Notes under the pieces: model-generated
What the model saw: the letters and a program-made list of their open reading frames with translations, nothing else
What the model was told of the DNA's origin: nothing
Database searches by the model: none
In this document: in pieces, positions 4,698-24,333 of the stretch
Layout: each line of letters opens with the position of its first letter
Numbering within the stretch: the stretch's first letter is position 1
Made by a program: the position numbers and the translations under genes
NCBI GenBank assembly: GCA_024230295.1
Contig: JAAERN010000009.1
Coordinates: 186,001 to 250,000 of the forward strand
Length of the DNA stretch: 64,000 nucleotides
Direction of reading: 5' to 3'
Origin: Planctomycetota bacterium
GTDB taxonomy: Bacteria > Planctomycetota > Phycisphaerae > Phycisphaerales > SM1A02

Positions 4698-5419
4698 TGG
4701 GAGAAGTATTCCCATTACTCTGGGGCTTTGGAGCGTTGGTGTTGATCAGTGTTGTTTTCTACTACACCCTTCAACAAGCCAAGAAGCGAACAGCGGCGCT
4801 TCGCGAACTTGCCAGCGAACTCGGACTTCGGTTTTTGGAGGACGATGATCCTAGCCATGACGAACGATTTGCCGACTTTGGGATTTTTTGTCGTGGTACG
4901 AATCGAGCGGCCTACAACACCCTCGGTGGCGAGGCCACCGTGGGCTCGTGCTGGCAGCATGTGGTGATGGGCGACTTCAAATACACAGTTGAAACGGGCT
5001 CCGGGAAGAACCGACGCCGCACGACGAAGCGGTTTAGTTATGTGCTTGTAGCCCTTCCACACGAAGGCGCTCCGGAATTGCTGCTTCGGCGAGAACACTT
5101 GTTCGACCGCGTAACGGACTTCTTCGGATTCGATGACATCGACTTCGAGTCGGTCGAATTCAGCAAGCGATTCCATGTCGCGAGTTCCAACAAGCGATTT
5201 GCTTGGGATCTCATCGATCCAAGGATGATGGAGTTCCTGCTGGCAGAGGAGTCTCCAGTCATCGATATGGAACATGATTGGGTGTGCATCGCCAATGACA
5301 AGGTGTGGCGCGTCGAAGAGTTCCGAGCCCGGTTGGATTTTGTGGGCCGTTTCCTCGATCATTGGCCCGATCACGTGGTGCGAGGGCTCGGTGAAGGCAG
5401 GTACAGGGAGCAGGATTGA
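4697..5419 (+). CDS. Membrane-anchored DUF3137-like protein
   Basis: This 240-residue protein has one N-terminal membrane segment (about 5-25, FGALVLISVVFYYTL) followed by a soluble domain. The body has the look of DUF3137-type proteins: an unusual RFLEDDD segment, a central beta-rich core, and a C-terminal D-W-V-C-I-A strand. No catalytic motif is recognised. The ATG overlaps the TAA of the preceding gene (TAATG) and the next gene, lemA, starts one base after its stop, so it belongs to the same operon. DUF3137-like proteins are often found beside LemA, which supports a shared envelope role, but the function is unknown. Confidence 0.7.
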   Translation: MGEVFPLLWGFGALVLISVVFYYTLQQAKKRTAALRELASELGLRFLEDDDPSHDERFADFGIFCRGTNRAAYNTLGGEATVGSCWQHVVMGDFKYTVETGSGKNRRRTTKRFSYVLVALPHEGAPELLLRREHLFDRVTDFFGFDDIDFESVEFSKRFHVASSNKRFAWDLIDPRMMEFLLAEESPVIDMEHDWVCIANDKVWRVEEFRARLDFVGRFLDHWPDHVVRGLGEGRYREQD

Positions 5420-5420
5420 T

Positions 5421-5981
5421 ATGACATGGATTGTTCCGCTGTGCATTGTGGGGGGCGTCGTACTCGTCGTACTTGTGTGGTACATCGTGATCTACAACCG
5501 GTTTGTGGCGATTCGCAAGCACCTCGAGGAGAGTTGGGCCGATGTCGATGTGGAACTCAAGCGCCGCTATGACCTGATTCCCAATATCGTTCGGACTGTC
5601 AAGGGCTACGCCGCGCACGAGAAAGATGTGTTCGAATCGATCACCAATGCCCGCGCCGCCGCTGTGGCCAATACTGGCGACCCGGCGAAGCAATCCGGCG
5701 ATGAGCAGCGGCTCGTGACACAACTCGGCAAAATCTTCGTCGTTGCCGAGGCCTATCCCGAACTCAAAGCCGACCGCAACTTCCTCAACTTACAAGAGGA
5801 ACTGAGCAACACCGAGGATCGCATTGCTGCGTCGAGACGTTTCTACAATGGCAATGTTCGCGAACTTAACACGCTTCGCGAATCCTTCCCATCGAGCATT
5901 GTGGCGGGCCTTGCAAACGTCGAAGAAGCGGGCTTCTTCGAGGTCACCGATCACGCGGAGCGAGACGTTCCGGCCGTGTGA
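5421..5981 (+). CDS. lemA: LemA family protein
   Basis: The product is 186 residues with one N-terminal transmembrane helix (about 3-23) and a coiled-coil-rich cytoplasmic or periplasmic domain. The family hallmark is the segment ending RRYDLIPNIVRTVKGY, followed by A-H-E-K and later N-L-Q-E-E-L. The longer open frame beginning at 5274 was rejected because the ATG at 5421 gives the typical hydrophobic LemA N-terminus and has GGGAG/CAGG sequence about 8-14 bases upstream. It follows the DUF3137-like gene by one base. LemA proteins are membrane-linked and of unclear biochemical role. A second LemA gene occurs at 26549. Confidence 0.93.
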   Translation: MTWIVPLCIVGGVVLVVLVWYIVIYNRFVAIRKHLEESWADVDVELKRRYDLIPNIVRTVKGYAAHEKDVFESITNARAAAVANTGDPAKQSGDEQRLVTQLGKIFVVAEAYPELKADRNFLNLQEELSNTEDRIAASRRFYNGNVRELNTLRESFPSSIVAGLANVEEAGFFEVTDHAERDVPAV

Positions 5982-6058
5982 AACGGGGTGATTTCTCAAG
6001 GAGCGGCCTGCTGAAGTGGGTTTGGGGGCTGTAAGTAGCCGGCGAACAAAATTGAGCC

Positions 6059-6086
6059 TTGACGAATCGTACGGCCGTGCGATAGT
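6059..6086 (+). promoter_or_regulatory. Probable sigma-70-type promoter for the dockerin-tailed gene at 6118
   Basis: TTGACG at 6059-6064 and GATAGT at 6081-6086 are separated by 16 bases and match the -35 and -10 consensus at 5/6 and 4/6 positions. Transcription would start near 6093, giving a leader of about 25 bases that carries AAGGAG at 6105-6110, 7 bases before the ATG. The good fit of promoter, leader and Shine-Dalgarno supports the call. The preceding lemA operon ends at 5981. Confidence 0.5.
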
Positions 6087-6117
6087 GGCCCCTGAAAGAG
6101 CATCAAGGAGATCGCCA

Positions 6118-6738
6118 ATGTTCGAATCTGCACGTTTAATGTATGGCACCGCGGCATTGACGATCTTTCTGCCCAGTCTGACTGCGGCGCATGCTGCGTG
6201 TTCGCTGACATGGGGGGAGTACGAAGTCACGCCTGATGGAAATGGGTCCGCAGATCTGATGTGGTCGTGCAATGAGTCCATGCTCGCCTTTCAGTTCGAT
6301 GTGTCAGGGCTGGAACTCATCGGACTGCGTGACGGCTGGTGCGGCGAAGGCGGATGGTCACTCTATAACAGTGAGACAACGGCAATCGGTTTCACAATGG
6401 GCCAAGCGCCCATGCCGCCGACGACCGAGCCCGTTCACTTCGTCACAGTCGACTTTGTGGTGACTGGCGAGACGCTGGCCTTTGCCGATGATGTGATCTT
6501 CGTGGCGCCGCCGGATGTAGTCATCGATGTTGATTGGTCTGATGTCGTGGTGCTGAACGATTGCGACGCCGATATTTATCCTGAAGGAGCGGGCGATGGC
6601 GTCGTAGGCGTCGATGAAGTGCTCGCACTTCTTGGAGACTGGGGGGCCTCGGGCAGTCCGTTTGATGTCAACGGAGATGGAATGATCGGGGTCGATGACC
6701 TCCTCGCCGTTCTGGAGGCATGGGGACCGTGTCTATGA
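6118..6738 (+). CDS. Secreted protein with C-terminal dockerin-like (GC-type) tail
   Basis: The protein has 206 residues with a signal peptide (about 1-26, hydrophobic YGTAALTIFLPSLTAAHA), a beta-rich central domain of about 110 residues that resembles cohesin/PEP-CTERM-type carbohydrate-associated folds only loosely, and a dockerin-like C-terminus. That tail has two Ca-binding-type repeats, GDGVVGVDEVLALLGDWG and NGDGMIGVDDLLAVLEAWG, and ends in PCL. AAGGAG lies 7 bases upstream of the ATG, which rules out the earlier in-frame GTG/ATG codons. The stop overlaps the next start (ATGA at 6735-6738). Such tails are common in Phycisphaerales exported proteins; their docking partner or sorting role is inferred, not shown. 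Confidence 0.82.
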   Translation: MFESARLMYGTAALTIFLPSLTAAHAACSLTWGEYEVTPDGNGSADLMWSCNESMLAFQFDVSGLELIGLRDGWCGEGGWSLYNSETTAIGFTMGQAPMPPTTEPVHFVTVDFVVTGETLAFADDVIFVAPPDVVIDVDWSDVVVLNDCDADIYPEGAGDGVVGVDEVLALLGDWGASGSPFDVNGDGMIGVDDLLAVLEAWGPCL

Positions 6739-8105
6739 ATACCGGCATGTTGGGCCTGGTATGTGCGCTAATGCTGCAGGTTCCGAGTCTTGCGGCACCA
6801 TGTGAGATGAACATGGATGTGCCGGACAGTCTTGGGATTGAGTCGATGTTCGGGAATTCGGTGGCATTGGATGGCAATCTGCTTGCAGTCGGAGCACCGC
6901 TTGAAACGGGCGTTGCATGGGCAACCGGCGCGGTCTATGTCTTCCGGCTCGAGGATGGTCGCTGGGTGAATGAGGCAAAACTCATCGTCGACGATGCGAA
7001 CTGGGGTGATATGCTCGGTGTCGATGTTGATTTGCAGGGGGACACGATCATTGCCGGTGCGTGGTTCAATGATGCATATGGGAGCAATTCAGGAGCGGCC
7101 TACGTCTTTACGCGAAACACCTCTGGAATCTGGTCGGAGCCAGAGAAACTGGTGCCACCCGATCCCGGTGCAGAGGATGTATTCGGTCGAACGGTTGCGC
7201 TGGGTGACGGATTCTGTGCCGTGGGCGCACCGCTGGATGATGATCAAGGGAGTTCGTCCGGCTCAATTCATGTATTTGATCGTGGTGTTGATGATTCCTG
7301 GGTCCATGCCGCCAAACTTGTACCACCAGTTCCCGCGGAAGGGCATCAATTGGGACTCGGCCTTGCAGCCGATGGCCTTCGTATTGTTGGCGGATCACCA
7401 TGGGCATATGAGGGGAGAGGAGACATCAGATTGTGGCAGCGATTTGGATCGAATTGGTCCAGTCAGTGGCACATGACCATGGAGTTCGCAGGTAGCCCGG
7501 ACGATTTCTTCGGCTTTGCGGTATCGCTGGAAGGTGGGCGCATGGCGGCAGGGTGTTACCGGGACGACACCTACGGAGAAGATGCTGGAAGCGTTTGGGT
7601 GATGGATCAAGTTTTCGATGGCTGGGCATTCAATCGCTTTGGCCCGGCGGATCCACAGCCAAATGCCCAGTTTGGCGTCTCGGTGACGGTATCGGGAGAT
7701 CATCTGATGGTGGGTTCCAGATACGCTCCAGTGAACGGAGTGGATTCTGGACGTGTTGATGTGTTTGAGGTGCCGTCTTGGAACTTGGCGAACACTCTGA
7801 TTTCACCGCAGCCCGAGCCCGAATCGGAGTTTGGCTGGGCGTGCGACATGCAAGGTGATATCGCGATTGTCGGTGCTCTCTATCAGCCGGATCACGGTGC
7901 GGTTTTCGCCTGGTCCGGCATGAGCAGCCCATGTGGTTGTCAGGGCGACCTTGATGGAGATGGTGAAGTTGGCGTCAACGACATTCTGGCGGTGCTGGAG
8001 GGTTGGGGCGGCGATGGCGATGGGGGTGATGTGAACGGTGATGGCAGTACCGGCATCGATGATTTGCTACTACTCATAGCGCTCTGGGGTCCGTGCAGTC
8101 CGTGA
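6735..8105 (+). CDS. Secreted FG-GAP-repeat protein with dockerin-like C-terminal tail
   Basis: This protein of 456 residues has a signal peptide (MNTGMLGLVCALMLQVPSLAAP) and several FG-GAP-type beta-propeller repeats, visible as recurring FG.SVAL.G..LAVGAP (first near residues 35-55), GAAYVF and FG..V.L.G segments through about residue 390. A Cys pair (CGCQGD) then introduces a dockerin-like tail of two D.NGDG/GIDDLL repeats ending WGPCSP. FG-GAP propellers usually sit extracellularly and bind partners or calcium. The ATG at 6735 couples it to the upstream gene by ATGA. No enzyme motif is visible, so binding or structural function is the best guess. Confidence 0.82.
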   Translation: MNTGMLGLVCALMLQVPSLAAPCEMNMDVPDSLGIESMFGNSVALDGNLLAVGAPLETGVAWATGAVYVFRLEDGRWVNEAKLIVDDANWGDMLGVDVDLQGDTIIAGAWFNDAYGSNSGAAYVFTRNTSGIWSEPEKLVPPDPGAEDVFGRTVALGDGFCAVGAPLDDDQGSSSGSIHVFDRGVDDSWVHAAKLVPPVPAEGHQLGLGLAADGLRIVGGSPWAYEGRGDIRLWQRFGSNWSSQWHMTMEFAGSPDDFFGFAVSLEGGRMAAGCYRDDTYGEDAGSVWVMDQVFDGWAFNRFGPADPQPNAQFGVSVTVSGDHLMVGSRYAPVNGVDSGRVDVFEVPSWNLANTLISPQPEPESEFGWACDMQGDIAIVGALYQPDHGAVFAWSGMSSPCGCQGDLDGDGEVGVNDILAVLEGWGGDGDGGDVNGDGSTGIDDLLLLIALWGPCSP

Positions 8106-15460: not shown

Positions 15461-17089
15461 TCAGATTCGGGATTGGCCGAGGGTGTTGAGATGATCGACG
15501 AGTCGAAGCGTTGTTTCATCTCCCGAAGCAGCGTCGCCGGTCAGTCCAGGGAGAATATCACCCGCAAGCGTCTTTCCAAGTTCGACGCCCCATTGATCGA
15601 ATGAGTCGATGCCCCACACGGCACCTTGCACGAAGACGCGGTGTTCGTAGAGCGCTATCAGGCGTCCAAGTTGAGTGGGGTCGAGACGGGGGTAGAGCAT
15701 CGTTGTTGAAGGCCGGTTGCCGGGCATGACCTTGTGCGGGGCCAATTCACGAATCTGCTCATCGTCGAGTCCGGTTTTCGCGAGGTCGGCAGTTACTTCG
15801 TCGAGCGTCTTCCCCCTCGCAAGGGCTTCGGATTGGGCGAGGCAGTTCGCCAGAAGCATGGCTTGGCGATCGTCGGAGCCCGGGCACTCTGATTGTGCCG
15901 CGACAAGGAAATCACATGGAACCATCGTTGTGCCTTGGTGGAGCATCTGATGGAATGAGTGTTGCCCGTTCGTTCCCGGTTCACCCCATACGACGAACGC
16001 CGTTCCGTGCGTCACCTCGGTGCCATCGATCCGAACATGCTTCCCATTGCTCTCCATTTCCAGTTGCTGCAGATAGGCCGGAAGCCGGTGGAGATGCTGG
16101 TCATAGGGAAGCACTGCTCGACTCTGACATCCCCAACACTCGCGGTACCAGCAGTCCAGAAGCCCAAGAAGCACCGGGATGTTCGTCTCGATCGGTGTGT
16201 CGCGGAAGTGTTGGTCGATCTCGTAAGCGCCTTCGAGCATGGCTTCGAACTGGTCAAAGCCGATGGCCACGGCGATCGAGAGACCGATGGCCGACCACAT
16301 CGAATAGCGTCCGCCGACCCAGTCCCAGAAACCAAACATGTTTTCGGTATCGATTCCAAAGTCCCGTACACGATCCGCGTTCGTTGATACAGCGACGAAA
16401 TGTTTCGATACAGCATCGCTTCCGAGGGCTTCGGTGACCCATCGCCGCGCTGCATGCGCATTGGCGAGCGTTTCTTGCGTACCGAATGTCTTGGAGGCCA
16501 CGATGAACAGCGTCGTTTCGGGGTCGAGTGAGCTCAGCGTGTCGGCCAGATGCGAGGGATCGACATTGGACACAAAGTGTGCTCGGATTCCGCTGGTCCA
16601 CCAGGGCCGAAGTGCTTGGGTTGCCATGACCGGGCCAAGATCTGATCCGCCGATGCCGATGTTGACGACATTCTCGATGCGGCGATCGGTGGCGCCTGTC
16701 CACGAGCCGTCGTGGATTGACTTGCAGAAGGATTGCATATGGCGAAGAACATCGCGAACGCCGGGCATTACGTCCTGGCCATCCGCCTGCATGGGGCGGT
16801 CCGAACAGTTCCGCAAGGCCATATGCATTGCGGCGCGGCCTTCAGTTGTGTTGACCGGCTCGCCGGCGAACATGGCGTCTCGCATCGCTTCAACCTCGCG
16901 TTCCCGGGCCAGCGCCATGAGCAGCGTGAGCGTGTCGGGAGTTGCGAGATGTCTGGTGAGATCAACTGTAAAATCACCGACTGTGTGGACGAAGTCTCTT
17001 GCGCGATCCGGTGCGCGAACGAGATCTCGCAGCGTGACCCCATCGAGTTTCGAGCGGTGGGCATGGAGATCATTCCAGGCTCGGCTCAT
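15461..17089 (-). CDS. pgi: Glucose-6-phosphate isomerase
   Basis: The enzyme is 542 residues, close to the usual large bacterial form. Both PGI signatures are present: VGGRYSMWSAIG and SFDQWGVELGK, the latter with the active-site Lys. The GIGGSDLGP loop binds the sugar phosphate. It interconverts glucose-6-phosphate and fructose-6-phosphate. The ATG at 17089 overlaps the stop of the glucokinase gene (ATGA) and is preferred to the ATG at 17152, which would lie deep inside that gene. It is followed by the debranching enzyme gene. Confidence 0.97.
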   Translation of the reverse strand: MSRAWNDLHAHRSKLDGVTLRDLVRAPDRARDFVHTVGDFTVDLTRHLATPDTLTLLMALAREREVEAMRDAMFAGEPVNTTEGRAAMHMALRNCSDRPMQADGQDVMPGVRDVLRHMQSFCKSIHDGSWTGATDRRIENVVNIGIGGSDLGPVMATQALRPWWTSGIRAHFVSNVDPSHLADTLSSLDPETTLFIVASKTFGTQETLANAHAARRWVTEALGSDAVSKHFVAVSTNADRVRDFGIDTENMFGFWDWVGGRYSMWSAIGLSIAVAIGFDQFEAMLEGAYEIDQHFRDTPIETNIPVLLGLLDCWYRECWGCQSRAVLPYDQHLHRLPAYLQQLEMESNGKHVRIDGTEVTHGTAFVVWGEPGTNGQHSFHQMLHQGTTMVPCDFLVAAQSECPGSDDRQAMLLANCLAQSEALARGKTLDEVTADLAKTGLDDEQIRELAPHKVMPGNRPSTTMLYPRLDPTQLGRLIALYEHRVFVQGAVWGIDSFDQWGVELGKTLAGDILPGLTGDAASGDETTLRLVDHLNTLGQSRI

Positions 17090-17748
17090 GAGTCGTGCTC
17101 CCACATCCTGAATCCGCCGATGAAGGCGTTGAAGTTGTTGCCACGTTCGCATCGTTCCGGGAGATCATCGAGTTTCATGACATTGCCTCCGCCAAGAACC
17201 ACATAGTCTGGGTCGATGGCATCCACGAACTGATCAACAACCTCATAAACGGTATCGCGCCAGACCTCGAAGCCATCTCGGTCGAGGGCGGCCTTGCCGG
17301 TGTGCTCCTCGAACGAGGACTCGCGGAACGGCATGTGCCCGAGTTCCAGAGGCTCAAGTCGATCGTGCTCGATCATGGCCGAACCAAGTCCGGTGCCGAG
17401 GCCGAGAAAGAGCATGCGGCCTCCGTGATAGCTTCCAAGTGCCTGCATCGCCGCATCGTTGAGAATGCGGACGGGGCAGCCGAAGGCCGCTTCATAGTCA
17501 AATCCGACCCACCCGCCACCCAGATTCGATGGGTTGAGGAGGGGCCGCCCACCCACGACGGGGGAGGGGTAGCCGATGGATACACGGTCCCAAGTCCAGT
17601 CCGAACACGTTTCTTGGACCGCCTCGGCCATGTACTCAGCGGAGACATGGGAGCCGGACTTCACCTCTCGCCGGGTTTCTTCACCCGATCGAAGGATCTT
17701 CAGACTCGTACCGCCGACGTCGATCACAAGGATGTCCACAGGAGGCAC
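17086..17748 (-). CDS. ppgK: ROK-family glucokinase, polyphosphate-glucokinase-like
   Basis: The product is about 220 residues from the GTG at 17748. VIDVGGTSLKIL is the N-terminal phosphate-binding loop, WTWDRVSIGYPSPV and NLGGGWVGFDYEAAFG match polyphosphate glucokinases, and ILNDAAMQALGSY plus LFLGLGTGLGSAMI are the ROK active-site and second phosphate loops (catalytic Asp in ND). It phosphorylates glucose to glucose-6-phosphate using polyphosphate and/or ATP; which donor is used cannot be told from sequence. An ATG at 17844 would overlap the divergent rpiB-tal gene and was rejected; GTG 17739 is a further option. It is the first gene of the leftward operon. Confidence 0.82.
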   Translation of the reverse strand: MPPVDILVIDVGGTSLKILRSGEETRREVKSGSHVSAEYMAEAVQETCSDWTWDRVSIGYPSPVVGGRPLLNPSNLGGGWVGFDYEAAFGCPVRILNDAAMQALGSYHGGRMLFLGLGTGLGSAMIEHDRLEPLELGHMPFRESSFEEHTGKAALDRDGFEVWRDTVYEVVDQFVDAIDPDYVVLGGGNVMKLDDLPERCERGNNFNAFIGGFRMWEHDS

Positions 17749-17795
17749 GATAGCCGATGCTCCGGTGTCGTTATCTTGCTCGCTGGAGGCGCGCG

Positions 17796-19313
17796 ATGCA
17801 GATTGCACTGGCGGGAGATCATGCGGGTCTGGAGATGCGGGCACACCTCGCCGAGGTGGTCGGCCAGCTTGGCCACGAGCCTGTGCTGGTTGGCCCCCTA
17901 GAGGGCGAACGAGTCGACTTTCCGGTCGCTGCCGAGGCGGTCTGCCGCGAACTCATGGCAGGGCGTGTGCAGCGAGGGATTCTCCTATGTGGTTCCGGGG
18001 CCGGCATGACGATTGCCGCCAATCGCTTTCCAGGAGTCCGGGCGGCAACAGCGCATGACACCTACACCGCACACCAGATGGTCGAGCATGATGCCGCAAA
18101 TGTGCTGACGCTCGGTACCCGGGTCATCGGCCCGGAGCCAGCAGCGGAGATTGTCACGGCCTACTTGAATGCCGAGTTCCAACCAGTTGAGCGATACCGC
18201 CGCCGGCTCGCGCAGATCATCGACATCGAAAGGAAGCGAACGATGAACCCGCTCCATGATTTGACCGAAGCAGGCCAGGCTGTCTGGCTCGACTACATTC
18301 GCCGGGACATTCTTGATGACGGCACACTGTCGAACTACATCGCCGACAACTGTGTGACCGGACTGACAAGCAATCCATCCATTTTCGACAAGGCGATCTC
18401 CGGAAGCGACTTGTACGACGAGGCGATTGGTACCGGCGATGCCGAAGAAACACTCTTTGATCTGGCACTCGATGACTTGACGCGAGCGGCTGATCTGCTC
18501 CGTACATCGTGGGATGTGAGTGGCGGCACCGATGGGTGTGTGTCGCTTGAGGTCTCGCCACTTCTTGCGGCGGATGCGGCCACGACGATCGAGCAGGGAA
18601 CCGCACTCTTTGAGCGTGCGGGACGACCGAATCTCATGATCAAGGTTCCTGGCACTCCCGAATCACCCGAAGCAATCGAAGAACTGATCTTCAGAGGCGT
18701 TAATGTCAACGTCACATTGATCTTCAATGAAGTTCAGTATCGACGCGCCGCCGAGGCGTACCTTCGTGGCATTGAACGAAGGCTTGCAGCCGGACTCGAC
18801 GCACACGTGTTCTCGGTGGCTTCGGTGTTTGTGTCGCGTTGGGATACCCCGACAGCGAGCCTTGTTGGCGACGATCTTGCCAACCGTCTTGGCATAGCGG
18901 TTGTGACTCAGTGCCACCGCGCCTACGAAGAGATCTTCTCGGGCGATCGATTCAACGCGATCGAGTCCAAGGGAGGCTATCGCCAGAAACTCTTGATGGC
19001 GAGTACCAGTACGAAGGACCCGGCACTTCCAGACACGCTTTACATCACCGGGCTCGTCGCAAAGGACTCCATCAATACGATTCCAGAACCAACACTTCTG
19101 GCGTTTGCGGATCACGGCGAAGTCACCGGAACGCTTGGGCCCGAGAATTGGGCGGAGGCCGACACAGTGGTCGCCGGATTCGAGGCTGCAGGCGTTGATG
19201 TGGCGGCACTGGCCGAGAAACTTCAATCCGATGGTGCTGATGCATTCGTCAAGGCTTGGCGAAACTTGCTCCAGACGATCGAAGATAAGGCCGGCAATTT
19301 GCAGGCCACATAG
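17796..19313 (+). CDS. Fused ribose-5-phosphate isomerase B - transaldolase
   Basis: One uninterrupted frame of 505 residues encodes two pentose-phosphate enzymes. Residues 1-149 are RpiB: GDHAGLEMR near the start, C65 in LLCGSGAG (the catalytic Cys position), and H.A..NVLTLG at about 97-106. Residues 150-505 are transaldolase: GLTSNPSIFDKAI, and the Schiff-base Lys K283 in NLMIKVPGTPES. RpiB interconverts ribose- and ribulose-5-phosphate; transaldolase moves a dihydroxyacetone unit between sugar phosphates. An in-frame ATG at 18243 marks the transaldolase N-terminus and has AAAGGA about 9 bases upstream, so free transaldolase may also be made. It heads the rightward operon with gnd, zwf and pgl. 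Confidence 0.9.
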   Translation: MQIALAGDHAGLEMRAHLAEVVGQLGHEPVLVGPLEGERVDFPVAAEAVCRELMAGRVQRGILLCGSGAGMTIAANRFPGVRAATAHDTYTAHQMVEHDAANVLTLGTRVIGPEPAAEIVTAYLNAEFQPVERYRRRLAQIIDIERKRTMNPLHDLTEAGQAVWLDYIRRDILDDGTLSNYIADNCVTGLTSNPSIFDKAISGSDLYDEAIGTGDAEETLFDLALDDLTRAADLLRTSWDVSGGTDGCVSLEVSPLLAADAATTIEQGTALFERAGRPNLMIKVPGTPESPEAIEELIFRGVNVNVTLIFNEVQYRRAAEAYLRGIERRLAAGLDAHVFSVASVFVSRWDTPTASLVGDDLANRLGIAVVTQCHRAYEEIFSGDRFNAIESKGGYRQKLLMASTSTKDPALPDTLYITGLVAKDSINTIPEPTLLAFADHGEVTGTLGPENWAEADTVVAGFEAAGVDVAALAEKLQSDGADAFVKAWRNLLQTIEDKAGNLQAT

Positions 19314-19329: not shown

Positions 19330-20343
19330 ATGCAGATCGGGATGATTGGTCTTGGAAGAATGGGCGCGGGCATGGTGCGGCGACTGCTCGCTGCGGGCCA
19401 CGAGTGTGTCGTGTGGGATATCAATCAGGATGCCATCTCGGCGCTCGCAGACGACGGGGCTACGCCCGCGAACACGCTTGAAGACATGGCCGCCGCGATG
19501 GCATCGCCGCGAGCCATTTGGATGATGGTTCCGGCCGGGCTCGTGGACACCGTGATCGAAAGTGTTGCGCCGCTTCTCGGCGATGGTGACGTTCTTGTCG
19601 ACGGCGGCAACAGCATGTGGCGTGACGATCTGACTCGGCATGCGGCGCTGGGGGAGCGTGGCATTCGCTACGTGGATGCTGGCGTAAGTGGCGGTGTGTG
19701 GGGACAGGATCGTGGCTACTGCCTGATGGTTGGTGGCGACAGCGAAGCCGTTTTGCATCTGCAGCCTGCGCTTGAGACGCTTGCGCCAGGCGCAGAGTCG
19801 GCAGCGCGCACCCACGGACTCGAAGGATCGCCGCTGCCTGCTGAACAAGGATGGCTGCACTGCGGTCCAAGCGGAGCAGGCCACTTCGTCAAGATGGTTC
19901 ACAACGGGATCGAGTACGGGTTGATGGCCGCCTATGCTGAGGGACTCGGCGTCTTGGCGCACGCGTCCGCGGGGAAGGAATCGCAGCAGCATGATGCGGA
20001 GACGACGCCGCTGCGAACGCCCAAGGCATTCCAATATGAGTTGGATCTTCCGGCGATCACCGAGTTGTGGCGTCGAGGCAGCGTGATTGGTTCATGGCTT
20101 CTCGACCTGACGGCTGCGGCCCTACACGACGATCCGGCGCTCGAGAATTTCAAGGGCCGCGTTTCCGATTCCGGCGAGGGCCGATGGACACTTGAAGCTG
20201 CGATCGAGACGGGATCGCCAGCCCCAGTCCTCGCAGCAGCACTGTTCCAGCGATTCGCCTCACGCGACGAGGATGAGTTTGGACGCAAGGTACTCTCGGC
20301 CATGCGATATCAGTTCGGCGACCATGTCGAGAAACCGGCATGA
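19330..20343 (+). CDS. gnd: 6-phosphogluconate dehydrogenase (decarboxylating), short YqeC-type
   Basis: The enzyme is 337 residues, the short form. The Rossmann motif MIGLGRMGAGMVRRL begins at residue 4, and the substrate loop DAGVSGGVWG and catalytic GHFVKMVHNGIEY are present. It oxidises 6-phosphogluconate to ribulose-5-phosphate and CO2 with NAD(P)+. The ATG at 19330 has GGGAG about 10 bases upstream; the long in-frame extension back to 19105 runs inside the transaldolase coding region and was rejected. The stop overlaps zwf by ATGA at 20340-20343. Confidence 0.95.
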   Translation: MQIGMIGLGRMGAGMVRRLLAAGHECVVWDINQDAISALADDGATPANTLEDMAAAMASPRAIWMMVPAGLVDTVIESVAPLLGDGDVLVDGGNSMWRDDLTRHAALGERGIRYVDAGVSGGVWGQDRGYCLMVGGDSEAVLHLQPALETLAPGAESAARTHGLEGSPLPAEQGWLHCGPSGAGHFVKMVHNGIEYGLMAAYAEGLGVLAHASAGKESQQHDAETTPLRTPKAFQYELDLPAITELWRRGSVIGSWLLDLTAAALHDDPALENFKGRVSDSGEGRWTLEAAIETGSPAPVLAAALFQRFASRDEDEFGRKVLSAMRYQFGDHVEKPA

Positions 20344-21746
20344 GTCGGAAGCATGCCGATGCGCTGGTGATCTTCGGGGTGACCGGCGATCTTGCGCACC
20401 GGAAAATCTTCCCATCGCTGTATGCGCTGGAGCGGCGAGGAGCGCTCAACGTACCTATCGTTGGAATTGCCAGACAAGAGATGACGACCGAGAACCTTCG
20501 CGTCAGAGCAAGAGACGGAATTGAGCGATTTGGCGGTGGCGAAATCGAAGACGAAGTTTTCGAACGACTTGCATCGCGGATCCAATACGTACTCGGCGAC
20601 TATTCAGATCCGGAGAGTTTCAAGCGGCTGCGAATTGCACTTGGTGAGGCGAAGCATCCGCTTCATTACCTCGCCGTGCCGCCCAGCATTTTCGGCATGG
20701 TGACGGCAAATATTGCCGCCGGCGGCTGCGCTGATGGCGCGTCGGTCGTCGTCGAGAAGCCGTTCGGCCGGGATCTTGATTCAGCGGTTCGCTTGAACGA
20801 GGAGCTCCATGCGGTTTTTCCTGAGGAGCGGGTCTATCGAATCGACCACTACCTCGGTAAGGAGCCGCTTCTGAACCTGACGTACTTCAGGTTTGGAAAC
20901 CGGTTTCTGGAGCCGATCTGGAACCGTGAGCACGTCCGCAGTGTGCAAATCACGATCGCTGAAGACTTCGGTGTCGAGGGGCGGGGGGCGTTTTATGACG
21001 AGGCCGGCGCGATTCGCGACGTCGTCCAGAATCACATGCTTCAAATGGTTGCGCTCTTGGCAATGGACCCACCGGCGGCGGCAGATGATGAGTCGCTGCG
21101 TGATGCCAAGGTGCGTGTGTTGAAATCGATGCGATCTCTGACCCCGAACGAAGTTGTGCGAGGCCGCTATCGTGGGTTTCTTCAGGAGGCGGGCGTTCAT
21201 CGTGATTCACGAACCGAAACCTACGCGGCAGTTCGGTTTCATATCGACTCGTGGCGATGGGCGGGCGTTCCATTTCTGGTGCGAGTTGGGAAGAAGATGC
21301 CCGTGACTGCGACCGAAGTACTCGTTGATCTTCGGCGACCACCGCAAGCGTTGTTCGAAGATAGTTCTGACTGCGAGCGGAACTACTTTCGATTTCAGTT
21401 CAAACCATTCACGACGATTTCAATCGGGGCGCGAGCCAAGAAGTCGGGCGAGACGATGATCGGCGAGCAAATCGAAATGCTCGCCGTCCATCAGGAGCCG
21501 GATGAAATGTCCGCGTACGAGCGATTGATTGAGGACGCGATGCAGGGGCAGGCGGGGCTCTTTGCGCGGATCGACGAGGTGGAGACTGCGTGGCGCATCA
21601 TCGATCCGGTATTGGCGGCCAATACACACCTCTATGACTATCAGCCTGGCACATGGGGCCCGCCCGAAGCTTGTAAATTGGTTGTCGGCCAGAACGCATG
21701 GCACAATCCCCTAAGCCCTGTTCAGTCGCATTCCACCGAGCACTGA
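20340..21746 (+). CDS. zwf: Glucose-6-phosphate 1-dehydrogenase
   Basis: The protein is 468 residues. It has the N-terminal nucleotide-binding motif IFGVTGDLAHRKIFPSLY, the EKPFGRDL strand and the active-site signature YRIDHYLGKE (about 166-175, with the catalytic His and substrate Lys). It oxidises glucose-6-phosphate to 6-phosphogluconolactone, the entry to the oxidative pentose phosphate pathway. It overlaps gnd upstream (ATGA) and pgl downstream (TGATG), so the three oxidative enzymes are translated as a unit. Confidence 0.97.
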   Translation: MSRKHADALVIFGVTGDLAHRKIFPSLYALERRGALNVPIVGIARQEMTTENLRVRARDGIERFGGGEIEDEVFERLASRIQYVLGDYSDPESFKRLRIALGEAKHPLHYLAVPPSIFGMVTANIAAGGCADGASVVVEKPFGRDLDSAVRLNEELHAVFPEERVYRIDHYLGKEPLLNLTYFRFGNRFLEPIWNREHVRSVQITIAEDFGVEGRGAFYDEAGAIRDVVQNHMLQMVALLAMDPPAAADDESLRDAKVRVLKSMRSLTPNEVVRGRYRGFLQEAGVHRDSRTETYAAVRFHIDSWRWAGVPFLVRVGKKMPVTATEVLVDLRRPPQALFEDSSDCERNYFRFQFKPFTTISIGARAKKSGETMIGEQIEMLAVHQEPDEMSAYERLIEDAMQGQAGLFARIDEVETAWRIIDPVLAANTHLYDYQPGTWGPPEACKLVVGQNAWHNPLSPVQSHSTEH

Positions 21747-22471
21747 TGGGTGAAGTGGGGACATCATGGGGTGGGGCGGACGAACTTGAAATTGTTGTTT
21801 TTAAGGATGCGGCTTCAATAGCGTCCCACGGTGCCAATTGGCTCGCGTCTGCGCTTGCGGACCTCACCGGTGCCGGCACGGCTGTGCTTGCGGTGAGCGG
21901 CGGACGATCGCCATGGGCCATGTTCAGTGAGTTGGCGGCGCGAAGTGATGTGCGATGGGATCGCGTACATATCGTGCAGGTCGATGAGCGAATTGTACCT
22001 TCGGGGAGTGATGAGCGGAATTGGACGGCAGTGATGCGTGTGTTTGGTCCGGTTGTCCCGAGCGACAACCTCCATCCGATGCCGGTTGAATCTGAGGATG
22101 TGATTGCCGGAGCGGCTTCGTACGATGAGTTGCTGCATGATCTAACGAATGGCCGCGGTCCGGACTTGGTGCATCTTGGTCTTGGCGCCGACGGGCATAC
22201 AGCTTCCCTGTTTCCGGGGGATGAAGCCACCGACACACTCGATCGTGGAGTCGTCGTAACGGCCAAGAAACACATGGGACGAAGGCGCATGACCATGACA
22301 CTTCCAATGGTCTCTTCTTCTCGCCACGTGCTATGGCAGGTGCAGGGTCTGGAGAAGGCTGAGATGCTGGCGCATCTCGTCCGTGGGGACGAATCGATTC
22401 CCGCCGGACGGGTAAAGCGAGATGGCGCCATTGTGTTGGCGGATGCCGCAGCAGCGAGTCTAATCTCATGA
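21746..22471 (+). CDS. pgl: 6-phosphogluconolactonase
   Basis: The product is 241 residues and matches the DevB/Pgl type: AVSGGRSPWAMF near 50-61, VDERIVPSGSDERNW, and LHLGLGADGHTASLFPG with the catalytic His and phosphate-binding residues. It hydrolyses 6-phosphogluconolactone. The ATG at 21746 shares a base with the zwf stop (TGATG); the earlier ATG at 21698 would lie inside zwf. The stop overlaps the next gene by ATGA. Confidence 0.95.
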   Translation: MGEVGTSWGGADELEIVVFKDAASIASHGANWLASALADLTGAGTAVLAVSGGRSPWAMFSELAARSDVRWDRVHIVQVDERIVPSGSDERNWTAVMRVFGPVVPSDNLHPMPVESEDVIAGAASYDELLHDLTNGRGPDLVHLGLGADGHTASLFPGDEATDTLDRGVVVTAKKHMGRRRMTMTLPMVSSSRHVLWQVQGLEKAEMLAHLVRGDESIPAGRVKRDGAIVLADAAAASLIS

Positions 22472-24333
22472 CGCTTCGGTTGAAACTTCTTGTATTGCTC
22501 GTACTTCCCTTGATAGTTGTGTTTGCGGTCATCGGATACACCCAGTTTGACGCCATGCGCGATCTCGCCATAACAGCTGCGAAGGAGCGAGCGCTCCTGC
22601 TGACGCAGGCGACAGCAAGGGAAATAGACAGCGATTTGGCAAGGACGATGCATGCGGCCCATGCTGGCGCGGCAGCACTCGTCCAAGCTCCAGAACTCAA
22701 GGGCGATCGTGTCTGGGCGATGCTTGAAGAACTTGTCAAGTGGGTTCCGCTTGTGGAGGGTGCGTCCATCGCGTGGAATCCGGAGCACATGAATCACGGT
22801 AGTCCAGCCGCGCCGTATGTGTGGCAGCGGGATGGCGATATGCACCGGCGCGATCTTAAGAAGGCGTACGAGCAAGACGGGCAGCCAAATTACACCGAGC
22901 GGAGTTGGTATCGCATTGCTGAAGATGGGAAGAGTGGGTGGACAGCACCCTATGACGGCCCGATCTTTGGCGGCATTCTTGTGTCCTACTCGGTGCCAGT
23001 GATTCGTTCGGGAGAGGTCGAAGCCGTTGTGTCACTAGACATACCGCTGCTTCCGCTTCAAGAGCGGCTTTCGGTCGGCGAGTTTGCCAACACGCTCGGA
23101 TACCTCGTAGGTCCGGATGATCGGTTCATTTCGAATCCAAATCCTCAGAGCATCATGAAGCCAGTGACGTCGGGAGGTGGACCCGCCGCACTGACAAACG
23201 CAGAGCCGGCGACGCTAATTCGTGAACCGGCTTGGCCCAATGGGTTGCCGCATATCGTCGCCATAGAGCCTATTCCTACTGCCGATTGGACTTTTGCAGC
23301 AGCCATGTCGGAGCAGGAAGTGCTTGGCCCGGTCAGGTGGCAGTTAGCGCGTAATGTCGCCATGCTGCTGCTCGGCGGATTGATCATGGCGGCAATCGTC
23401 TTGGTGACAGGGCTTCACCTCACCGGTGATGTCCGGCGTCTTGGCTCCGCAGTTGGCCGCGTCTCGGCTGGTGAACTTGACGCCACCGTCGATCACATTC
23501 GCCGATCGGATGAGCTTGGCGTCCTAGCTCGCGATTTCAATACGATGACTCGCAAGCTTGAGGCCACCGTACATGAGGTTGCTGCGGCCGAGACTGCAAG
23601 ACAGCGGGTGGAGCAGGAACTCGACGTGGCGCGCGAGATTCAAGAACAGATGCTCCCGCATGACGATCCTGTGCTACCTGAGCATCCAGAAGTTGATCTC
23701 TTTGCGATCAACGTTGCGGCGCGTCATGTTGCTGGCGACTTCTACGACTACTGGGTCCGAGATGGCGTGTTGACAATTGTGCTCGCCGACGTCGCTGGCT
23801 CGGGGATGCCCGCGGCATTGGTGATGGTCCGTGCTATGACACTGCTCCGCCAGTTCGATGACTCCGAGGTCCCGCTCATCGATGTCGTAGCCCGCACCAA
23901 TGTGGAGTTGTGCAACAACAATGAACGACAAGTCTTCGTGACGGGCGTGATCGCGCGATATGACTTGAGCGAAGGATCATTCGAACTCGTCTCGGCTGGT
24001 CATCTGCCGCCATTGATCAATTCCAGCGGGGTTCTGAGTGAGGAAGGTGACTCGACCGGGCCGCTGCTCGGTGTTGTGGCAGACGGGCAGTGGTCATCTC
24101 GGCGGGGCAATTTGGTTGCGGGCGACTGGTTGGCCTTCTATACGGACGGAATTACGGAAGCCCGAAGTCCGGATGGAGAAATGCTCGGCACCAAAGGGCT
24201 CGCGGCGGGGCTACGCACGCATCTTCAGAAGGATGCGCAATCGGTGGCTCAACAGGGCATTACGATTGCAGGGCAGTGGCATGGCGGCCATGTTGACGAT
24301 GATCTGAGCATGCTGGTCCTTCGCCGCACCTGA
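22468..24333 (+). CDS. Membrane sensor with HAMP and SpoIIE/RsbU-type PP2C serine phosphatase domain
   Basis: The protein is 621 residues. A transmembrane helix at about 5-25 and a second at about 293-315 flank a periplasmic sensor region of about 265 residues resembling a Cache domain. HAMP (about 315-370) and a coiled coil with the AREIQEQMLP motif link to a PP2C/SpoIIE domain at about 400-620. Metal-binding acidic residues are visible in GDFYDYW, LADVAGSG, TDGITEARSPDG and HVDDDLSML. Such proteins dephosphorylate anti-sigma-antagonist (STAS) partners in partner switching. No STAS or anti-sigma kinase gene is in the window. It is coupled by ATGA to pgl, an odd location for a signalling protein. 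Confidence 0.9.
   Translation: MTLRLKLLVLLVLPLIVVFAVIGYTQFDAMRDLAITAAKERALLLTQATAREIDSDLARTMHAAHAGAAALVQAPELKGDRVWAMLEELVKWVPLVEGASIAWNPEHMNHGSPAAPYVWQRDGDMHRRDLKKAYEQDGQPNYTERSWYRIAEDGKSGWTAPYDGPIFGGILVSYSVPVIRSGEVEAVVSLDIPLLPLQERLSVGEFANTLGYLVGPDDRFISNPNPQSIMKPVTSGGGPAALTNAEPATLIREPAWPNGLPHIVAIEPIPTADWTFAAAMSEQEVLGPVRWQLARNVAMLLLGGLIMAAIVLVTGLHLTGDVRRLGSAVGRVSAGELDATVDHIRRSDELGVLARDFNTMTRKLEATVHEVAAAETARQRVEQELDVAREIQEQMLPHDDPVLPEHPEVDLFAINVAARHVAGDFYDYWVRDGVLTIVLADVAGSGMPAALVMVRAMTLLRQFDDSEVPLIDVVARTNVELCNNNERQVFVTGVIARYDLSEGSFELVSAGHLPPLINSSGVLSEEGDSTGPLLGVVADGQWSSRRGNLVAGDWLAFYTDGITEARSPDGEMLGTKGLAAGLRTHLQKDAQSVAQQGITIAGQWHGGHVDDDLSMLVLRRT

Follow-up and report, generated by a model that had tools for sequence, protein, structure and literature searches.

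An RpiB-transaldolase fusion gene of Phycisphaerales with a conserved putative internal start for free transaldolase

The fusion gene and its domains

The window (the whole stretch of DNA analysed, 64,000 nucleotides of contig JAAERN010000009.1 from a bacterium of the Phycisphaerales) carries a gene in which rpiB is joined to tal, next to further genes of the pentose phosphate pathway. The domains were assigned with Pfam and NCBIfam profiles and by alignment to relatives. The features are, in window positions:

15461..17152, minus strand: pgi, stand-alone glucose-6-phosphate isomerase (start uncertain; Pfam/NCBIfam profiles)
17783..17795, plus strand: Shine-Dalgarno (SD) region (GGAGG) of the full-length product, strong (SD pairing -9.3 kcal/mol)
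17796..19313, plus strand: rpiB-tal fusion gene, 505 aa, predicted mass about 54 kDa (frame translation, Pfam/NCBIfam profiles, alignment to relatives)
17796..18236, plus strand: RpiB domain, residues 1-147, with C65 (profiles, alignment; last helix from the predicted structure)
18228..18236, plus strand: putative internal SD region GAAAGGAAG, whose AGG at 18231-18233 encodes Arg146
18243..18245, plus strand: putative internal start codon ATG (Met150, codon 150), in the loop between the domains
18243..19313, plus strand: transaldolase domain, identical with the predicted free transaldolase (356 aa, 38.2 kDa), with K283
19330..20343, plus strand: gnd, 6-phosphogluconate dehydrogenase (Pfam/NCBIfam profiles)
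20340..21746, plus strand: zwf, glucose-6-phosphate dehydrogenase (Pfam/NCBIfam profiles)
21698..22471, plus strand: pgl, 6-phosphogluconolactonase (start uncertain; Pfam/NCBIfam profiles)

An earlier note, made from this sequence alone, had described a single open frame encoding RpiB and then transaldolase, and this description holds: no stop occurs before the end of the frame, and Pfam places LacAB_rpiB at residues 3-141 (E 3e-42) and TAL_FSA at residues 163-495 (E 6e-69). A longer ORF exists from an ATG at 17757, but the alignment of relatives begins at 17796, the start that follows the strong SD. The cut-offs of the RpiB/LacA/LacB family were passed (PF02502 144.2 bits vs 24.7; NF004051 159.9 vs 135; TIGR00689 130.6 vs 88.3), those of the RpiB equivalogs were not reached (TIGR01120 114.7 vs 138.65; TIGR02133 118 vs 168.2), and the predicted RpiB activity therefore rests on the broader family. 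The transaldolase part passed the cut-offs for the mycobacterial type (NF002881 394.9 vs 367; TIGR00876 249.1 vs 233.75). C65 and K283, which we take to be the catalytic residues (the active-site cysteine of RpiB and the Schiff-base lysine of transaldolase), are intact as the note had it: C65 lies in LLCGSG (the CGSG/CGTG loop) and aligns with the cysteine of the solved RpiB 3he8, and K283 lies in IKVPG and aligns with the lysine of the solved transaldolase 7oey.

In the structure predicted from 16 sequences (mean pLDDT 89.8 for the best model, 70.5 to 89.8 over five models), the final helix of RpiB spans residues 132-147 and the first helix of transaldolase residues 152-158, with Met150 in the four-residue loop 148-151 between them. 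Thus, a protein started at Met150 would be a whole transaldolase, and the claim that the in-frame ATG lies at the transaldolase N-terminus was confirmed.

Neighbouring genes and gene content

Downstream of the fusion, a simple ORF script found gnd in seven and zwf in eight of ten loci; neither was seen in L022 or in L015, where long antisense ORFs could have masked them. In five loci (L007, L011, L013, L014, L015) another large ORF stops no more than about 70 bases before the fusion begins, and this ORF, read from its sequence without a profile, looks like a transketolase. Upstream of the fusion in the window lies a ROK-family kinase gene (17086-17844, minus strand), for which the best NCBIfam match, polyphosphate-glucose phosphotransferase, reached 62.6 of 250 bits and is thus far below the cut-off. 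Directly after pgl, at 22468-24333, follows a gene for a SpoIIE-type phosphatase with HAMP and Cache-like domains; a similar gene is found near the fusion, on either strand, in seven of ten loci examined.

The fusion query had a single match in its own genome, and in each of the at least 16 fused genomes of the family the fusion was the only match among the matches listed. RpiA was found in none of the nine genomes of the genus (the control was positive in 8 of 14). Since RpiA was not found in this set and the genome has one fusion match, both activities seem to come from the fusion gene alone.

The internal start site in this genome

The earlier note had also seen AAAGGA upstream of the internal ATG; it is located at 18229-18234, eight bases from the ATG. 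In predicted pairing energies, for which the tail of the genome's own 16S rRNA may differ, the internal SD reaches -5.9 kcal/mol, so that the SD of the full-length start is the stronger of the two. The genome does use SDs, since -6 kcal/mol is reached by 33.5% of 182 first ATGs vs 11.7% of internal ATGs, and the SDs of zwf (-3.0) and of the pgl ORF (-2.7) are weaker than the internal one. An SD as strong as this precedes 13.1% of the 1529 internal in-frame ATGs in 327 kb of the genome, and SD strength in a single genome was therefore rejected as proof of an internal start. As its strength in this genome is ordinary, the site exceeds chance only through its conservation.

When codons were synonymously recoded, the native site paired more strongly than the mean of the null in all 14 fusions that have a start at codon 150, with P between 0.011 and 0.21 and below 0.05 in eight; the per-sequence test alone is not decisive. 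In two relatives, L008 and L047, the internal SD is weak (-3.5 kcal/mol). Local mRNA folding at the internal start gave a mean z of 0.12 (n = 14), a value reached or exceeded in 9 of 58 background columns. Open mRNA structure as a feature of the start is thus unsupported: folding is more open in the four start-less fusions tested (mean z 1.43).

Codon conservation at the internal start

For the codon counts, 31 fused loci were reduced to 18 distinct sequences by removing duplicates from two collections; four of these lack a start at codon 150 and were excluded, leaving 14. Twelve of the 14 have ATG at codon 150 and two have GTG, so the ability to start, as read from the codons, is kept while the residue changes. 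The arginine codon at positions -12 to -10, that of Arg146, is AGG in all 14. AGG makes up 35 of the 464 arginine codons in these genes, 14 of them at Arg146, and elsewhere it is used in 21 of 450 (4.7%). In the 18 other arginine columns conserved in at least 12 of the 14 sequences codons are mixed, with at most eight sequences alike.

Pairwise synonymous codon identity among the 14 is 0.23-0.45, where saturation would give 0.27. Common descent does not explain the uniform AGG, because synonymous sites are nearly saturated. Among 177 columns that have one degenerate residue in all 14 sequences Arg146 is the most extreme, with a binomial probability of 2e-19 (next column 6e-6); this value is naive in assuming independent sequences, an assumption that near-saturation makes nearly but not exactly fair. 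The residue itself is invariant in all 16 fusions aligned, including two without Met or Val as start at codon 150, and is by this alignment also kept for protein reasons. Both the SD and the start codon are conserved beyond protein constraint, a pattern by which genes with an internal start and two products are recognised. What the earlier note had guessed from one sequence, that the gene may yield a bifunctional enzyme as well as free transaldolase, is backed by these counts at codons 146 and 150.

The same saturation bears on the idea that the site is a functionless relic of the unfused operon. Although rpiB and tal are adjacent or overlapping in unfused relatives, such a relic would have decayed, and AGG would not still be present in every sequence; we regard this explanation as very improbable. 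The codons around the start bear on another alternative, in which an SD-like site would stimulate a +1 frameshift; ribosomes would then reach the TGA that overlaps the start (ATGA/GTGA) and release free RpiB, not free transaldolase. The release factor 2 gene, in which an SD stimulates +1 shifting, provides a precedent, and all 14 sequences have the TGA at this place. This TGA, however, arises automatically from ATG or GTG followed by a codon beginning with A, and the codon before the start varies (ACG, CAC, ACC, ACT, TTC) and offers no slippery run, so that we give the frameshift hardly any weight.

Fusions and RpiB genes without the start

Comparison was extended to 93 distinct RpiB sequences, 23 of which are fused. 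None of the nine fusions that lack a start at codon 150 has AGG at the Arg146 position; six have arginine (CGC in five, AGA in one) and three alanine. In L201, one of the alanine cases, the codon just before position 150 is an ATG, and no AGG stands upstream of it at the usual spacing. The start-less fusions include one entire fused genus (L013, L087). Among the 70 RpiB sequences not fused to transaldolase, arginine occurs at this position in 17 and AGG in three, and one of these three AGG codons directly precedes an overlapping tal start. That the arginine is the same while its codon differs with the presence of the start fits selection on a ribosome-binding site, not protein constraint. Since the 14 form one clade, the association of AGG with the start counts as a single evolutionary contrast and not as 23 independent ones.

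These sequences also speak to the possibility that AGG acts as a rare arginine codon, or as an SD-like pause, slowing the ribosome so that RpiB folds first, with no internal initiation. AGG is indeed among the rarest arginine codons in these genes and sits at the domain boundary. However, the six start-less fusions with the same boundary and an arginine do without AGG, AGA, which is also rare (27 of 464), never replaces AGG in the 14, and the changes from ATG to GTG preserve the ability to start. A folding pause is thus unlikely, and very probably selection maintains an internal ribosome-binding site in rpiB-tal.

Distribution and origin of the fusion

The earlier note had proposed a search in related genomes, and the uninterrupted fusion was found in at least 16 of the family's 181 genomes, spread over four genera (labelled g1, g17, g5 and g294): at least six of nine genomes of its own genus, and all six, at least two of three and both of two genomes of the three further genera. 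The three genomes of its own genus that have no match among the matches listed are 83-91% complete. In 397 genomes drawn from the class the fusion occurs in at least three, all from the same family, among the matches listed. The note had further asked for a frameshift in the assembly to be excluded. Many of the genomes are draft MAGs, but the same uninterrupted frame in independent assemblies of four genera, together with similar fusions in other phyla, refutes an assembly error, which we consider next to impossible. An apparent in-frame TGA inside the transaldolase matches of one genus was dismissed as well: the transaldolase ORFs in G353 and G267, two of the genomes concerned, are open, and by its coordinates the TGA is the ORF's own stop, at the end of the match.

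Outside the family, L014, a MAG labelled Alphaproteobacteria, encodes RpiB-Tal-PGI in one frame of 1022 aa (5001-8069), clustered with gnd, zwf and pgl. As no other of the 17 genomes of its order has this fusion, the gene may have been transferred or misbinned. Among 301 genomes from the phylum to which L017 (titled Chloroflexi) belongs, we counted at least three triple fusions (G789, G853, G892) and at least two double fusions (G877, G861), lower bounds because two candidates were scored per genome. L022, a MAG labelled Actinobacteria, joins RpiB to a degenerate transaldolase; no other fusion of this kind is among the matches listed for 148 genomes of its order.

On a transaldolase tree of 99 rows, built with a quick method after removal of identical duplicates and of hits under 240 aa (hence of the partial L208), a minimum of five changes of the fused state is required, and the 16 Phycisphaerales fusions form one clade with a support of 95. 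The pairing with RpiB, which had been thought less common than that with glucose-6-phosphate isomerase, is thus uncommon yet recurrent, with 23 distinct fused sequences. Unfused, adjacent rpiB and tal genes are found in 14 of the 99 rows; at unfused junctions the two genes overlap in an ATGA, stand further apart, or are separated by a single in-frame stop. An ATGA overlap of separate genes is seen in the five Chloroflexi loci L017-L021, where a run rich in purines occupies the corresponding position of the alignment. Since unfused rpiB and tal adjoin or overlap in relatives, fusion by stop loss or a one-base shift would be a short step.

Two further observations concern the same sequences. In L208, a partial locus from the same family, rpiB and tal share a reading frame and are separated by a single TGA, and tal has what looks like a GTG start; this unfused arrangement is close to the fusion. 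The catalytic lysine of transaldolase is lost in three of the 99 domains (L022, L165 and L201, with E, Q and A), all fused to RpiB (3 of 23 fused vs 0 of 76 unfused); detection bias is likely here because the RpiB part helps to find degenerate partners.

Discussion

Taken together, we consider it likely that rpiB-tal is one gene with two products, the 505-aa RpiB-transaldolase and a free 356-aa transaldolase. Initiation at 17796 would yield the former, and initiation at ATG 18243 with the internal SD the latter. Most likely, neighbouring rpiB and tal genes in a pentose-phosphate operon became fused through loss of the stop that separated them; the former ribosome-binding site of tal would have stayed within the fused frame and would have been kept by selection in three genera. 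RpiB and transaldolase do not catalyse consecutive steps, and direct substrate channelling is therefore not an obvious reason for the fusion. A likely benefit of the internal start would be transaldolase in excess of RpiB, since the fusion gene is the only detected source of either enzyme in the genome.

Fusions of transaldolase with PGI are known in many bacteria, according to excerpts of PMC4062416 and PMC6191907, which name the bifunctional enzyme in Gluconobacter and Sulfobacillus. The Tal/PGI enzyme (NF007080) likewise joins transaldolase to another sugar-phosphate isomerase, and Tal-PGI rows are branches neighbouring the fusions on the transaldolase tree. In our gene, by contrast, RpiB is N-terminal and PGI is encoded separately on the opposite strand; the transaldolase scores 344.4 bits with NF007080, below the 712-bit cut-off, and the chain contains no PGI domain. 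The triple RpiB-Tal-PGI fusions (L014, L151, L165, L201) share the RpiB-Tal order and a similar short join, but differ in their third domain and in having no start at codon 150, and two of the four have lost the transaldolase lysine.

Genes that yield a second, shorter product through internal in-frame initiation are known, Cas11 being a well-documented example. They include the Cas8/Cas11 and Cas10/Cas11 genes, for which the authors, in the excerpts of PMC11899642, argue for more of the C-terminal product and back the Cas11 start by mass spectrometry and start-codon mutation. As in these genes, one frame would yield two products in rpiB-tal; the Cas11 cases, however, belong to a defence complex, whereas rpiB-tal belongs to metabolism and its internal start is supported by codon conservation only. 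Repeated fusion inside the pentose phosphate pathway is also seen for G6PDH-6PGL, which arose independently and repeatedly in eukaryotes (PMC3148214), but those fusions involve other enzymes, the first two steps of the pathway, and no internal start in the excerpts of that paper. No report of an RpiB-transaldolase fusion was found in the titles and abstract openings listed from one open-access library, nor in the excerpts of PMC4470864. Each part is thus of a known kind, and the combination, the recurrence and the nucleotide-level evidence appear to us to be new as far as this literature search goes.

A wider and tentative view, which we hold to be possible but rather doubtful, is that rpiB-tal(-pgi) displays a series from overlapping operon genes over double to triple fusions. 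One clade would keep the inner ribosome-binding site under purifying selection and thereby set the ratio of bifunctional to free transaldolase, and free copies may join fused ones in a mixed complex. The gene offers a clean natural test, in central metabolism, of what becomes of a gene's own start after fusion, and the codon signature (an unchanged amino acid, always in one rare codon, amid saturated neighbours) could reveal other fused genes with two products from genomes alone.
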